A DNA stretch of 47,066 bases. It comes from a virus. The notes under the pieces were generated by a model. It was not told the origin of the DNA, made no database searches, and was given only the letters and a program-made list of their open reading frames with translations. The DNA lies in IMG/VR virus record IMGVR_UViG_3300032668_000041, positions 1 through 47,066 of that record; one strand, 5' to 3'. The position numbers and the translations under genes were made by a program. Of the stretch, positions 21,569 to 32,755 are shown piece by piece. The stretch's first letter is position 1, and the number at the start of each line of letters is the position of its first letter.

Positions 21569-22677
21569 GAATAGCGGGCGACACAGGGTACGGTCGCTAC
21601 AAAGATATGTTCACCGACTTGTTGGTCGTTGACTCCATCCGTGGGATGCACTCCACGGGCGTTGCTTTCATCTCACGCTACAAGCTCGACTCTAACAAGG
21701 TCCTCAAGTGCGTGGGTCCGGCAACCAATCTCGTTCTCACCAAAGAGTACGAGGAGACCGCACGTAAGTCCGCCATGTGCATCATCGGCCACAATCGCTA
21801 TGCGACCAAGGGCGAGATCACGGTGGACAATGCTCACCCGTTCCAATTTGAGCATATCATCGGCGCTCACAACGGCACCCTCGACTATCAGGCGTGGAAG
21901 TGTCTGTACGAGAACGAGAAGTACGGCACCGACAGTCAAGCCGTCTATTCACACCTGAACCAATACGGTTTGCGGGAAACCGTTGACCAACTGCAAGGTG
22001 CATGGGCTCTCACTTGGTACGATCAAAGGGACCACACCCTGAATTTCCTCCGCAACGAGAAGCGGCCCCTGCACTACGCCTACTCTAAAGACCACACGAC
22101 CATCGTATGGGCCAGCGAATACTCCATGCTGGAGTTCATCATGGCTCGCTACGGCTTCAAGTCCGACGGCAAGGTCTATATGGCCGAGGAGGACAAGCAC
22201 ATTCGTTGGGAAATTCCTTTTGGGGCCAACGAAAAGATCAAGGGACCTTTCATGACGGAGATGAAGGCTCTTCCCGAACGCCCAAAATCGTGGATCGCCT
22301 GGGAGGGCGAAACGTATTACGGGTCAAATCTAAATCACGGGCACAGCTACGACGTGAACAGAAAGCACGACGCAAGCAATTCAAGCTCAGTAAAAAAGGC
22401 CAGTGAGGAAGACGCTCCCTGGGAAGACCTGCTGAAGAACCGTGTGGACACCAAGAAGTTCAGGCCTCCCTATAAGCGACTGAATGGCACCATCATCAAC
22501 AAGGAACTTTTCAATGGGTACGTGGCCGATGGCTGCGTCTTCTGCGACAACCATGACATCCCTTGGGGCGAGTTCATTCTCCCCCTGAAGGACGACATGG
22601 ACGGACGACGTATTTTCATGTGTGAGGATTGTTACAACGACGACAGCAACTTCGAATGTCTTCAATGGATGATTTAA
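21553..22677 (+). CDS. Class II (Ntn) glutamine amidotransferase, ATC start
   Basis: 374 residues if started at ATC 21553. The next codon is the catalytic Cys of the canonical start CGLVGIAGD, which must become residue 1 of the mature enzyme. AGGAG lies eight bases before ATC. The first ATG (21607) would remove the nucleophile. Other class II motifs are GMHSTG, GHNRYATKG, AHNGTLDY and a GTDSQAV segment. A C-terminal zinc-ribbon-like part has CVFC and CEDC. It probably releases ammonia from glutamine for amide synthesis in the adjacent ligase pathway. It overlaps the upstream gene by 16 bases. Confidence 0.85.
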   Translation: MCGLVGIAGDTGYGRYKDMFTDLLVVDSIRGMHSTGVAFISRYKLDSNKVLKCVGPATNLVLTKEYEETARKSAMCIIGHNRYATKGEITVDNAHPFQFEHIIGAHNGTLDYQAWKCLYENEKYGTDSQAVYSHLNQYGLRETVDQLQGAWALTWYDQRDHTLNFLRNEKRPLHYAYSKDHTTIVWASEYSMLEFIMARYGFKSDGKVYMAEEDKHIRWEIPFGANEKIKGPFMTEMKALPERPKSWIAWEGETYYGSNLNHGHSYDVNRKHDASNSSSVKKASEEDAPWEDLLKNRVDTKKFRPPYKRLNGTIINKELFNGYVADGCVFCDNHDIPWGEFILPLKDDMDGRRIFMCEDCYNDDSNFECLQWMI

Positions 22678-22678
22678 C

Positions 22679-22990
22679 TTGCGTGTCAAATGCGGGACGC
22701 AAGTCGGCGAGCTAACCAGTTTACCTGGGTGTTCCCAAATCGCTGTGTCTCATGATGTTTATTCAACTGCTAAGGGACAAGGGACTGGGTCAGAAGCTAA
22801 TAACCTTCGAATAGCTCTATGTCGTCAATTAGGTTATGACGTACTGCTATGTACTTCTGATCTTGCAAATTCATCTCAGATTTCGATCTTAAAGAAGAAC
22901 AGGTGGACAATGGCTTTTGTTTTTGCATCTTCAAAAACCCAGCACAATGTTGGGCTGTTCTATAAACGTCTGAATGTAGATATAGAATGA
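22679..22990 (+). CDS. GNAT-like acetyltransferase
   Basis: 103 residues from a TTG start with only a weak ribosome site. The segment KGQGTGSEANNLRI resembles the acetyl-CoA pyrophosphate-binding motif A (Q/R-x-x-G-x-G/A), followed by a YDVLLCTSDLANSSQI strand/helix typical of the later GNAT motif. It is short for the family (usually 140 or more) but looks complete at the C-terminus. In the cluster it could acetylate a ligase product. The stop overlaps the next ATG. Confidence 0.55.
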   Translation: MRVKCGTQVGELTSLPGCSQIAVSHDVYSTAKGQGTGSEANNLRIALCRQLGYDVLLCTSDLANSSQISILKKNRWTMAFVFASSKTQHNVGLFYKRLNVDIE

Positions 22991-24418: not shown

Positions 24419-25642
24419 ATGTACACCAAGCCTATGCCTCTTGACCGAGGACTGGACGAAGAAATCCCCATTCATCCCCTTGCGCAACAGCACAAGGATG
24501 CTTTCGGGATTGAAATCGAGCTGGAAGGTCTGAACATTCGGACTGAAAAGCCGAATGTTCGCAAACTGTGGGGGATGCACGAAGACGGCTCCCTCCGGGC
24601 TCAGATCGCTGGCAGAGCCGGTGGTGTTGGTCAGACGTGTGAATACGTCTCGATCACTCCGTTGACCGAGGAGCAAGCGCTTGAGAGCTTGAAGACTTTG
24701 TTTGATTTCCTTACCAGTCCGGATGTGACTGTCTTCCCGTCCTACAGAACGTCAATCCATGTGCACGTCAACTGCGCCAGGGAAACGTGGAGGACGATCT
24801 ACAACTATATCACTCTGGCCATCATCTTCGACGAACTGTTCGTCAGCCAGAGTGGGGAACACCGGATCGGGAACAATTTCTGTCTGCGTTTTGTTGACGC
24901 CGAAGCTCCGGTTGAAGAGTTGGCCAAATCCATAGCCCAGTACGGGAACCTCAAGGGTGTCCCGCAGCACATGCGCTACAGCTCGACGAACTTCGCGTCG
25001 CTCTACAAGTTCGGGACCGTTGAGTTCCGTTCCATGGAGTGTCACACGGACTTCGAACGGGTCAAGAAGTGGATCAAGACGTTGCAGAAGCTGAAGGAAT
25101 CTGCCCGGGAGTTCCGAACTCCGCAGGACATCATCAACCTCTTCAGTCAATACAACGAGACTGAATTTGGTGTTCACATTCTGGGCAAGGACTTCACCCA
25201 ATTCGTCGAAACCCCCGATTACAAGAAGATGTTGCGTCGGGGTATGCGTCTCGCACAAGATTTCGCCTACGCGTCAACCTGGGAGGCCCAGACAAAGGCC
25301 ACAGAGTTGGAGCAACGCGCTGAGTACGAGAAGCAAATGGCGGCCATGAAGAAGAAGGTCGCCAAGCAAGCCTTACAGTGGGCGGAGCCTGGGGTCCCCC
25401 AGCCAATGCCCATGCCTAACTTCGCCATCCCGGTTCCCCCTGTGGGCTTTGCCGGTGGTGCGCAACTTGGGCAAGGATGGGCTCAAATGAACCAGTACAT
25501 TCAAGCTGATGCCGCTATGGCTCATATCAATCAGATCAACTACGCCGCTCAACCCCAACCTGAAGTCGTCGACTTTGATGATGATGAAGATCATGATGTC
25601 GAAGACTTCGACGAGGATCACGACGATGACGATTTGGATTGA
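24419..25642 (+). CDS. Amidoligase (Amidoligase_2-type) with Asp-rich C-terminal tail
   Basis: 407 residues. FGIEIELEG, HEDGSLR, TCEYVS, SIHVHVN and VEFRSM are the strand motifs of the glutamine-synthetase-fold amidoligases, with metal- and ATP-binding Glu and His. After about residue 300 come a Lys-rich coiled coil, a Pro/Met-rich linker (VPQPMPMPNF) and a tail of about 24 residues that is almost only Asp and Glu with a few His. Such tails occur in proteins that are glutamylated. GGAGG lies eleven bases before the ATG. It overlaps the ATP-grasp gene by 17 bases. Confidence 0.82.
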   Translation: MYTKPMPLDRGLDEEIPIHPLAQQHKDAFGIEIELEGLNIRTEKPNVRKLWGMHEDGSLRAQIAGRAGGVGQTCEYVSITPLTEEQALESLKTLFDFLTSPDVTVFPSYRTSIHVHVNCARETWRTIYNYITLAIIFDELFVSQSGEHRIGNNFCLRFVDAEAPVEELAKSIAQYGNLKGVPQHMRYSSTNFASLYKFGTVEFRSMECHTDFERVKKWIKTLQKLKESAREFRTPQDIINLFSQYNETEFGVHILGKDFTQFVETPDYKKMLRRGMRLAQDFAYASTWEAQTKATELEQRAEYEKQMAAMKKKVAKQALQWAEPGVPQPMPMPNFAIPVPPVGFAGGAQLGQGWAQMNQYIQADAAMAHINQINYAAQPQPEVVDFDDDEDHDVEDFDEDHDDDDLD

Positions 25643-26366
25643 TACGGCTGGTCGGCCGTCCAATGGTGCGAAAGTGCTTGCGGACAATCCGGGCTTCAAA
25701 CGCAATCTGACCTACAAGTTCATCAAACCGGGTGACACTGTGGTGAACTGGGGATCATCGAAGATGAAGCCTCTGCCTGAATGTCAAGTGCTCAACATGC
25801 CGTCTGCTGTGGCGGCTGCTGCCAACAAGCTCGTCGCCTTCGGGGAGATGGGCACCAAGGACGTCACGACCGTGGAATGGACGTCCAATCGTGAGATCGC
25901 TCAGAAGTGGTCAACCGACGGTTACACTGTTGTTGTCAGAAATAAGTTGACAGGCCATTCTGGTGATGGTATAATCATCATAGAGAAAGGAGAAGAAGTT
26001 CCTCAAGCTCCTCTCTATTCCAAGTACATCTTTAAGGTTAAGGAGTTCAGGGTTCATGTTGTCAACGGTCAAGTGATCGACACACAACAGAAGATCAGGG
26101 ATCCCGAAAAGACCCCTTCAATTTGGAAGGTTCGTTCTCATGAGAATGGCTTTATGTACGTTCGCAATAATGTCGAGGCCAATTCCAGCCGCGATGATCT
26201 TGCGATTACTGCGATGGTGGCGCTCAATCTAGACTTTGGGGCCGTCGACATCATCGAAGACAAACACGGCCACTTCTATGTGCTTGAGATCAACACCGCT
26301 CCGGGTCTTGAAGGTCAGACCCTAACTAATTATTTGGAGGCCTTCAAGGCATGTCAGCAACACTAA
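25626..26366 (+). CDS. ATP-grasp peptide ligase (RimK-like)
   Basis: 246 residues from ATG 25626, with GAGGA eight bases upstream. The frame also extends upstream through the antisense-free overlap with the amidoligase tail, but that part is low-complexity and lacks a ribosome site. The ATP-grasp signature is a VVVRNKLTGHSGDGIII loop, a YIFKVKEFRVHVV strand, and GAVDIIEDKHGHFYVLEIN with the metal-binding Glu and Asn. RimK-like enzymes add amino acids to carboxyl groups. A consensus promoter lies inside the gene at 25947. Confidence 0.82.
   Translation: MTIWIDTAGRPSNGAKVLADNPGFKRNLTYKFIKPGDTVVNWGSSKMKPLPECQVLNMPSAVAAAANKLVAFGEMGTKDVTTVEWTSNREIAQKWSTDGYTVVVRNKLTGHSGDGIIIIEKGEEVPQAPLYSKYIFKVKEFRVHVVNGQVIDTQQKIRDPEKTPSIWKVRSHENGFMYVRNNVEANSSRDDLAITAMVALNLDFGAVDIIEDKHGHFYVLEINTAPGLEGQTLTNYLEAFKACQQH
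25947..25975 (+). promoter_or_regulatory. Perfect consensus sigma70 promoter inside the ATP-grasp gene
   Basis: TTGACA (25947-25952), a 17-base spacer ending TGG, and TATAAT (25970-25975). Both hexamers and spacing are ideal. It points at the genes from 26351 on (ThyX, primase-helicase, polymerase) and could start a separate replication transcript. The protein sequence across it (KLTGHSGDGIII) is the conserved ATP-grasp loop, so the match may partly reflect codon choice. Confidence 0.75.
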
Positions 26367-26788
26367 AGGCCCGGCTTAAGTTCCGGGACGGCCTTCCTTG
26401 GAAGCTCCAGAAGCACATCACCGACAAGTATGGTTATGTCTTCGACGAGCGTGTCTTTCAAAAGCATGTGATCCTGAAAAAGCCTGTGAAGTTCATCATG
26501 GGCCATGCGCCGGCAAGGGGGACTATGGCACCGGCTGATAAGGTTGCCACGTTTCTCGCCCCAGCCCAACAGCAACCGAGCTTACCTCTTGTCACTCCCG
26601 ACGCGTTGACTGCGAACGATAAGATCGAGCTGGGAAGGAAGTGTATGGCCATCAAGGCCAACTTTCACGACCCATCAGCTAGCGCTGCTATGATCCGCTT
26701 TCGGATCGGTGAAATGGCCCGACCCCTGAACAGAGAGCAGAAGAACTTCTGTCAGGAGTGGGCAGACAGGAACGTGGATGCGTTGTAA
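26351..26788 (+). CDS. Hypothetical protein
   Basis: 145 residues, overlapping the ATP-grasp gene by 16 bases, with GGAGG ten bases before the ATG. The N-terminal half is basic (LKARLKFRDGLPWKLQKHI); a Pro/Gln-rich linker leads to a helical C-terminal domain (MIRFRIGEMARPLNREQKNF). No family recognised. It is the first gene after the internal promoter at 25947. Confidence 0.7.
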   Translation: MSATLKARLKFRDGLPWKLQKHITDKYGYVFDERVFQKHVILKKPVKFIMGHAPARGTMAPADKVATFLAPAQQQPSLPLVTPDALTANDKIELGRKCMAIKANFHDPSASAAMIRFRIGEMARPLNREQKNFCQEWADRNVDAL

Positions 26789-26990
26789 ATTGTGCGACGC
26801 CGAGGACAACACGATCTCGTGGGACCCGGTGAAGAAGGATTTTACGGATTGCCAAGAATGTCAATCGGTCATTCAGGAAGCCCTGGACGACTTCGCTGAA
26901 GAGGAGGACGAAGACGAAAGTAAACCTGAATTGGATCACGCCAAAGGCAGACCAAAATCTCGCCTACATGGCTCGGGTGTCCAACCCTAA
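26778..26990 (+). CDS. Small zinc-ribbon protein with acidic linker
   Basis: 70 residues. CKLC near the start (C3, C6) and CQEC about twenty residues later form a CxxC-CxxC zinc site. Then comes a strongly acidic stretch (EEEDEDESKPELD) and a basic end. Its 3' third overlaps the start region of thyX by 77 bases, and the acidic codons supply the GAGGAGG ribosome site for thyX. Possible roles are nucleic acid or protein contact; unknown. Confidence 0.7.
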   Translation: MRCKLCDAEDNTISWDPVKKDFTDCQECQSVIQEALDDFAEEEDEDESKPELDHAKGRPKSRLHGSGVQP

Positions 26991-27563: not shown

Positions 27564-28115
27564 ATGACGAAGGCATCACAAGTGAAGCCAGCTAAGATCA
27601 TCTTCCTCGACATCGATGGACCAATGATCCCCTACCGGGCGATGTTTCTGCCCGGCCAAACTCGCGTTATGACGGTGTTCGATCCGATTGCCGTCAGCTT
27701 CATCAACAATCTCTGCAAAGAGCATGGTTGGAAGGTCGTCCTCCACTCGTCCTGGATCAGGATCATGGGTGGTGAGTACACCCTGAACCACTGCATCAAT
27801 CAGGGTATCAAGGCGGAACACTTCCATGCTGATGCGTATTGCGATGAAAACATCAACTGGCGCTACACTCGTGTGGCCAAGTGGCTTAAGGACCATCCGG
27901 AAGTCACAGAATATGCCATCGTGGATGATGAGCCTTACCAAGACGATATTGAGTATTCGTCCGTTGCGTATCCTGATGGTATGAGTCTGCATATGGTCCT
28001 CGTCCATTACTATAACGGTTTCCTGTTCTCAACCTACAATGATATCCTTGCTCAAGGCAAATCGGAAGCTCCGGACGCCCCTCACCCGCGTTACCATATT
28101 GAGGACGACGACTGA
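27564..28115 (+). CDS. HAD-superfamily phosphatase-like protein
   Basis: 183 residues from ATG 27564, with AAAGGA just upstream. Motif I is FLDIDGPM (D-x-D), motif II is VLHSSW (Ser), and an acidic motif IV is AIVDDEPYQDD. These are the catalytic features of HAD phosphohydrolases, here of the short-capped type found in phages. Possible roles are nucleotide dephosphorylation or nucleic-acid end repair. The tail ends EDDD. It overlaps the next start (TGATG). Confidence 0.75.
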   Translation: MTKASQVKPAKIIFLDIDGPMIPYRAMFLPGQTRVMTVFDPIAVSFINNLCKEHGWKVVLHSSWIRIMGGEYTLNHCINQGIKAEHFHADAYCDENINWRYTRVAKWLKDHPEVTEYAIVDDEPYQDDIEYSSVAYPDGMSLHMVLVHYYNGFLFSTYNDILAQGKSEAPDAPHPRYHIEDDD

Positions 28116-28258: not shown

Positions 28259-28457
28259 TCCTCTAGAGCAAGGCGGCAAGCTCACAAGTTTCGACTACAC
28301 CTTTCTTAAGGGCGACGAAGAAGAATGGCCCTGTTGGGGTGCGGCTATGTCCGTAGTCATGGAGTATTGTCGAGGACAGGGGTTGGGCAGCTTCGGCAGT
28401 CCGACTTACAAGGGCCTCAGGAAGATGGAGGAATATGAGCGGGAGAACTTGGGTTAG
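28248..28457 (+). CDS. Hypothetical protein
   Basis: 69 residues starting MTADPLEQGG. It contains GDEEEWPCWGAAMSVVMEYC and ends with a charged helix (GLRKMEEYERENLG). The frame is open upstream to about 28122, where it would be a hydrophobic extension, but that region already encodes the zinc-finger-like gene. No family recognised. Its end overlaps the metallophosphoesterase gene by 23 bases. Confidence 0.6.
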   Translation: MTADPLEQGGKLTSFDYTFLKGDEEEWPCWGAAMSVVMEYCRGQGLGSFGSPTYKGLRKMEEYERENLG

Positions 28458-28977
28458 CGCGGACCACCACTTCGGTCATGCGAACATCCTAAACTTCAAA
28501 AGGGACGACGACACTCTGTTGCGTCCAGGATTTAAGGACATAGATGAGCATGATCAGTGTCTTATTGCAGCCCACAATTCAGTTGTGGACCACGGTGATC
28601 GAGTATACCTTCTTGGCGATGTCTGTATTAATCGCCGTTATCGTCATCTCCTTGGCCAGCTTAATGGTCGTCTGGTGCTGGTCAAAGGCAACCACGATAT
28701 TTTCAAGATCAATGACTACCTTCCGTTCTTTGACGACATCAGGTCGTACGTTGTTCAGAAGGACAAAGACGGCAACAAGGTAATACTGTCTCACATTCCA
28801 ATCCACCCTGACAGTATGGAGCGCTTCGGCACAAACATCCATGGGCACACCCATTACCAGAGTGTGAAAAACGATGCTCGATACGTGTGTGTGAGCATGG
28901 AGCACCTCCCTGACTACAAGCCAATCCAAATTCATCAGGCACTTAGCCTGCGAGGCGTGCGGGAGCTCGGACGCTAA
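28435..28977 (+). CDS. Metallophosphoesterase
   Basis: 180 residues. Calcineurin-like motifs in order: SADHHFGH (D-x-H), GDRVYLLGDV (G-D), KGNHD (G-N-H-D), LSHIPIHP (H) and NIHGHTHYQS (G-H-x-H). These bind two metals and hydrolyse phosphomonoesters or phosphodiesters. Similar short enzymes occur in many phages. Its 3' end overlaps the true start of the primase-helicase by 68 bases. Confidence 0.85.
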   Translation: MSGRTWVSADHHFGHANILNFKRDDDTLLRPGFKDIDEHDQCLIAAHNSVVDHGDRVYLLGDVCINRRYRHLLGQLNGRLVLVKGNHDIFKINDYLPFFDDIRSYVVQKDKDGNKVILSHIPIHPDSMERFGTNIHGHTHYQSVKNDARYVCVSMEHLPDYKPIQIHQALSLRGVRELGR

Positions 28978-32681: not shown

Positions 32682-32755
32682 GCTGACATCGTTCAACTAG
32701 TAGGACCCGTTCTTGTAAAGCGGAAATCGGGGTGCAAGTCCTCGTGTCAGCCCCA
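32682..32755 (+). tRNA. tRNA-Thr, anticodon UGU
   Basis: 74 bases. Acceptor stem GCTGACA / TGTCAGC pairs perfectly. D arm GTTC/GGAC with an AACTAGTA loop. Anticodon stem CCGTT/AGCGG with loop CTTGTAA, giving anticodon TGT (reads ACA). T arm CGGGG/CCTCG with loop TGCAAGT. The CCA end is encoded. The D-loop lacks the usual GG, and base 26 appears to be missing, so it is slightly atypical. It may supplement a rare host tRNA. Confidence 0.85.

Follow-up and report, generated by a model that had tools for sequence, protein, structure and literature searches.

Probable initiation of a phage thyX gene at an ACG codon within an overlapping zinc-ribbon-like reading frame

The thyX locus and its neighbourhood

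The stretch of DNA analysed here, called the window, is a 47,066-base record of an uncultivated phage with genes for a portal protein and a DNA polymerase. It carries a thyX gene whose reading frame stays open between 26833 and 27561 and whose 5′ end overlaps a small upstream reading frame. Loci of relatives are referred to by number (L002 and so on). The following features are discussed:

26778–26990, plus strand: small zinc-ribbon-like open reading frame, 70 amino acids, CxxC...CxxC with an acidic tail (frame open 26730–26990; from the alignment of relatives)
26902–26907, plus strand: AGGAGG Shine-Dalgarno, −12.0 kcal/mol; six bases (26908–26913) precede ACG
26914–26916, plus strand: ACG at the homologous ThyX start position, proposed initiation codon
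26914–27561, plus strand: thyX, flavin-dependent thymidylate synthase, 215 amino acids from ACG (PF02511, phrog_85, AlphaFold model matching 4fzb/2cfa)
26968–26970, plus strand: first in-frame ATG, codon 19, within helix 1, without Shine-Dalgarno (duplex energy 0.0)
26985–26990, plus strand: CCC TAA, end of the upstream reading frame, read from the sequence
27564–28115, plus strand: HAD-domain gene beginning 2 nt after the thyX stop (PF18143), conserved beside thyX
32682–32755: tRNA-Thr, anticodon TGT

By sequence, signature and predicted fold the encoded enzyme is an ordinary ThyX, for which FAD-dependent activity is predicted. A profile search matched the product to PF02511 with 127.6 bits (cut-off 24.8), a PHROG search matched it to phrog_85, and the stretch RHRAFHFQEFS contains RHR-x7-S, the ThyX signature. 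The AlphaFold model (pLDDT 90.3) had the solved viral ThyX structures 4fzb and 2cfa, presumably both from the virus PBCV-1, as its top structure matches (4fzb: E 5e-18, TM 0.77 by query), and these two led both the sequence-profile and the fold searches with the window's protein. The window's ThyX resembles them in sequence profile, fold and signature; its translation start alone is unusual. Purifying selection was found across thyX in the comparison of the window with L007 (dN 0.26, dS 1.35), which is the one pair that gave a ratio, dS being undefined (−1) in four of five pairs. On these sequence comparisons thyX is an intact, selected gene. A further ThyX match, in Synechococcus phage S-RIP1 (HQ317388.1, ∼22109–22730), falls into two pieces with no annotated gene beneath; a frameshift or an unannotated thyX is possible there.

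The zinc-ribbon-like frame extends over thyX up to its nucleotide 77, and thyX lies in the +1 frame relative to it. Its four cysteines are invariant in an alignment with six to seven relatives. It had no Pfam, PHROG or named-phage match, and a single-sequence search returned no relatives, while an alignment search returned six loci. In eight distinct lineages (nine loci, L002 and L003 being identical) a small frame of the CxxC kind ends within thyX, and the frame relation of the two is constant throughout. The distance from the thyX start to the stop of the small frame is 11 nt in L007, L009, L012 and L143, 17 nt in L011, 41 nt in L002, 77 nt in the window and 104 nt in L141; L008 and L010 have different upstream frames that also stop at +11. 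The stop at +11 is lost in both the window and L002. A small CxxC protein (L204) was also seen on the contig of L010, far from thyX, so that pairing with thyX is not obligatory. The block of amidoligase, RimK-like ATP-grasp, zinc-ribbon-like protein, ThyX, HAD protein and the frame at 28435–28977 is largely kept in relatives. Since the HAD gene begins 2 nt past the thyX stop, it may be translationally coupled to thyX. At 24419–26366, upstream of thyX, an amidoligase gene (phrog_7469) precedes a RimK-like ATP-grasp gene (phrog_2599); this pair is conserved in most relatives and is possibly a cassette for the ligation of peptides or proteins, linked to this group of phages.

Position of the ThyX N-terminus

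A preliminary description of this DNA had proposed that ThyX begins at ACG behind a strong ribosome site. Reading the sequence confirmed the arrangement: AGGAGG at 26902–26907, six bases, and then, from 26914, ACG AAA GTA AAC CTG AAT TGG ATC ACG CCA. The first ATG, GTG or TTG in the thyX frame is ATG 26968 at codon 19, and it is the sole canonical start in the frame; one able to yield the conserved N-terminus is therefore absent. The description had also placed this ATG inside a conserved helix and held that it would truncate the enzyme, which agrees with the model: a strand is predicted at residues 2–8 and helix 1 at residues 12–23, and a start at codon 19 would cut away the strand together with half of the helix. 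We rejected ATG 26968 as the main start on this ground and on its duplex energy of 0.0 kcal/mol.

A homologue alignment, suggested earlier as a check, was made from ten sequences (the window and nine viral relatives) and supports the proposed N-terminus. The majority N-terminus is M-x-V-x-L-x-W-I-T-P, with W7 and T9 invariant, L5, P10 and D13 almost invariant and ARVSN unchanged in all ten sequences. The start M-K-V-x-L-x-x-I-T-P given in the preliminary description therefore holds in outline, except that Lys2 occurs in the window and L002 only. Furthermore, substitutions were counted per codon position in the ThyX frame of eight relatives. Codons 2–18 gave 0.30/0.21/0.65 at positions 1/2/3, similar to codons 19–40 (0.21/0.17/0.62), and already codons 2–6 gave 0.36/0.33/0.73; codons −13 to −1 were flat (0.66/0.73/0.67). 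In the three lineages that lack a canonical start, the values were 0.31/0.20/0.59 downstream versus 0.51/0.69/0.56 upstream. The pair L002–L007 had no bias in codons 2–6 (0.6/0.6/0.6, five codons). As the bias sets in with codon 2 and none is seen further upstream, coding in the ThyX frame starts at about codon 1–2. Together, the alignment, the codon-position bias, the predicted strand and helix and the lack of a ribosome site at ATG 26968 make the proposed N-terminus well supported.

Ribosome site and start codons in relatives

The duplex of the AGGAGG site with the 3′ end of 16S rRNA (−12.0 kcal/mol) was the strongest among 50 scored starts, which comprise 50 of the 51 starts of a rough gene set (16871 omitted, ATG 26968 included). 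The next-best start reached −11.9 kcal/mol, a practical tie. Only 0.3% of 3000 random plus-strand positions attained −12.0 kcal/mol, and AGGAGG is present 13 times in the window, both strands counted. Since 43 of the 51 starts have a Shine-Dalgarno-like match, the host probably uses ordinary Shine-Dalgarno initiation. AGGAGG falls within the Glu/Asp codons GAA GAG GAG GAC of the overlapping frame and is therefore in part a by-product of the acidic tail. The C of ACG is not dictated by that frame, as GAC and GAT both encode Asp there. RNA accessibility calculations predicted the final two G of AGGAGG to be mostly paired; the mean unpaired probability from −15 to +6 was 0.57, which is not decisive against a span of 0.18–0.60 at 15 other starts. 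Duplex energies in relatives were −6.6 (L002), −8.6 (L007), −9.3 (L009), −3.2 (L008) and −3.0 kcal/mol (L012). In L002, AGGAG stands seven bases from the start codon, compared with six for AGGAGG in the window.

Codons at the homologous start position vary among relatives: ACG in the window, CTG in L007 and in L002 and L003, TTG in L004–L006, L008 and L009, and ATG in L010 and L012, while L011 and L013 have ATG at a neighbouring codon. L002 and L003 come from two datasets and are identical over 6633 bases, so that the non-standard start of this lineage was observed twice. In L007 an ATA with better Shine-Dalgarno spacing lies one codon upstream, and an in-frame ATG lies 126 nt upstream within the zinc-ribbon gene. 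A protein tree of 25 rows joined the window and L002 as sisters (98/88) and grouped them with L005, L007, L008 and L009 (88/83, below the tool's 95/80 mark). Within this group of six lineages position 1 is ACG, CTG, CTG, TTG, TTG and TTG; ATG occurs in none, and three have neither ATG, GTG nor TTG at this position. The next relatives outside, L010 and L011, have ATG. All three non-standard codons are one base from ATG, with a chance of ∼0.004 when kinship and the choice of position are ignored (ATG and its one-base neighbours make up 10 of the 64 codons).

A wider sample held at least 411 ThyX loci, of which 287 distinct ones were left after removal of 122 duplicates and two without anchor. 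They were taken from best-match lists and genome contigs, and fractions among them are not population frequencies. Among the matches listed, five distinct loci had no ATG, GTG or TTG within 36 codons (the window, L002, L007, L091 and L179); in the other 282 the nearest canonical start was ATG in 197, GTG in 49 and TTG in 36. L091 and L179 were discarded as candidates for non-canonical starts on account of an in-frame ATG (L091) and GTG (L179) somewhat further upstream, and the in-frame ATG of L007 calls for the same caution there. The whole upstream frame was free of these codons in three of 197 anchored loci among the matches listed, namely the window and the identical L002 and L003. As a control, the starts of neighbouring genes were aligned across relatives and were ATG in 15, GTG in five and TTG in one of 22 cases; the remaining one was a CTG at the aligned, putative start of the HAD gene in L002.

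Initiation at ACG and its alternatives

We consider it most likely that translation of thyX begins at ACG 26914, a start that is probable though unproven. Of the initial proposal, the position of the N-terminus stands on alignment, codon-position bias and the missing site at ATG 26968; initiation by ribosomes at ACG itself is an inference, suggested by the weak starts of close relatives at the same position. An assembly error or minority variant at base 26915, with an ordinary ATG in the population, is unlikely but has an appreciable chance of being right. ACG is one base from ATG, ATG is the commonest nearest canonical start (197 of 282 distinct loci among the matches listed), and the sequence is known from a single contig; an exact-match scan with base 26915 left open, in a collection that may lack near-identical records, gave no matches, which leaves one assembly with this sequence. 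However, the three next-closest distinct ThyX among the matches listed have CTG, CTG and TTG, the sister's non-standard start was found twice, and ACG takes two changes from a TTG or CTG ancestor. Recent loss of the start with thyX hardly or no longer expressed and decay beginning has little probability in our judgement: the start and the upstream stop that are usual here are both gone, yet the frame is intact, RHR-x7-S is present, the strong Shine-Dalgarno is in place, and the window's terminal branch is not long (0.25 versus 0.35 for the sister).

Other routes to a ThyX protein were weighed as well. Ribosomes on the upstream frame might shift by +1 and produce a zinc-ribbon–ThyX fusion without a separate start, as the constant frame relation in eight distinct lineages, the CCC TAA at the end of the frame and the extension of the overlap to +77 (window) and +41 (sister) after loss of the +11 stop would allow. 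We find this quite unlikely: a shift at CCC TAA would drop ThyX residues 1–25 including ARVSN, inspection by eye showed no slippery motif common to the window and L002, the ThyX frame is unconstrained upstream of codon 1, and an unsystematic look at relatives revealed no fused protein. Moreover, L141 combines a 104-nt overlap with an ordinary ATG, and relatives with the +11 stop vary in their starts (CTG in L007, TTG in L009 and L143, ATG in L012). A different near-cognate start, chiefly CTG 26926 at codon 5, would retain WITP, and as a start codon CTG generally outperforms ACG. However, it lies 18 nt from AGGAGG, would cost most of strand 2–8 and sits inside the codons 2–6 that already show the bias, which makes it very unlikely. 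Hardly any weight is given to a functional shortened ThyX from ATG 26968: it is the sole canonical start of the frame, but it has no ribosome site and would lose the structural elements named above. L012, whose codon 1 is ATG, has Leu at the same position; this Met is therefore a residue rather than a start. Initiator tRNAs carry a mismatch at the end of the acceptor stem; the phage tRNA-Thr was considered as an odd initiator and rejected, as its acceptor stem opens with a G-C pair and ends fully paired.

In the best reading, the Shine-Dalgarno drives weak initiation at a near-cognate codon that lies within an overlapping gene. At ACG 26914 such a codon occupies the homologous start position and is properly spaced from the Shine-Dalgarno. 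The 30S subunit would be held over ACG by the strongest Shine-Dalgarno among the scored genes of the contig, and the initiator tRNA would accept the codon at low efficiency, giving full-length ThyX with an N-terminal Met at a low level. As the start lies in the tail of a translated gene, ribosomes passing through would prevent the site from closing and may also supply it. Termination-reinitiation could help in relatives whose upstream frame stops at +11: in L007, L009, L012 and L143 the arrangement is like that of the coupled overlapping pairs treated in PMC10666635, and unlike that of the window (+77) and L002 (+41). With a stop at +77, not a few nucleotides from the start, reinitiation of this type does not fit the window. 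The shift of the stop in both lineages means that initiation must lean more on the Shine-Dalgarno, as if its strength replaced coupling; with −12.0 in the window against −6.6 kcal/mol in L002, such compensation is clear in the window only.

Initiation at all 64 codons in E. coli was reportedly studied by Hecht et al. in 2017. We know of hardly any documented natural ACG initiation in bacteria, nor of any C-to-U editing in phage-infected bacteria of the sort that turns ACG into AUG. Such editing creates AUG at the chloroplast ACG sites of PMC9845219, which resemble the window in having a genomic ACG where AUG is expected, and bacterial-type ribosomes. Titles and abstract openings found in a literature search described no natural ACG start in bacteria or phages. 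Bacterial non-AUG initiation (GTG, TTG; rarely CTG, ATT, ATA), for which PMC11445065 gives examples in lacI and further regulators that start with GTG, is like the window in that a weaker codon reduces expression and turns up repeatedly and independently among related genes. It differs in that the window's codon overlaps another gene, and in that the second base of ACG is mismatched to the initiator anticodon, a much poorer class in PMC10158994 and PMC13232202. There, IF3-dependent initiation in vitro accepts nothing but Watson-Crick pairs at the first two codon bases (PMC10158994), and many active non-AUG codons carry U at base 2 (PMC13232202). By the same rule the engineered system of PMC10158994 would rule out TTG and CTG, both used by bacteria, and thus ranks ACG low without forbidding it. 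The case for ACG initiation is weakened by these second-base data and by the single assembly.

We infer a low output whose weakness is tolerated or selected. It is a tentative, rather doubtful idea that this phage lineage throttles ThyX, with a Shine-Dalgarno-rich site fixed while ATG was replaced by progressively weaker near-cognates, first TTG, next CTG and finally ACG, and that in this phage ACG truly serves as a natural start codon because an exceptionally strong Shine-Dalgarno inside an overlapping gene makes it workable. Gene finders limited to ATG, GTG and TTG would truncate or misplace such genes. A set of close homologues in which a single position is ACG, CTG, TTG or ATG, with or without a coupled upstream stop, amounts to a natural experiment on the extent to which a strong ribosome site can rescue a poor start codon.
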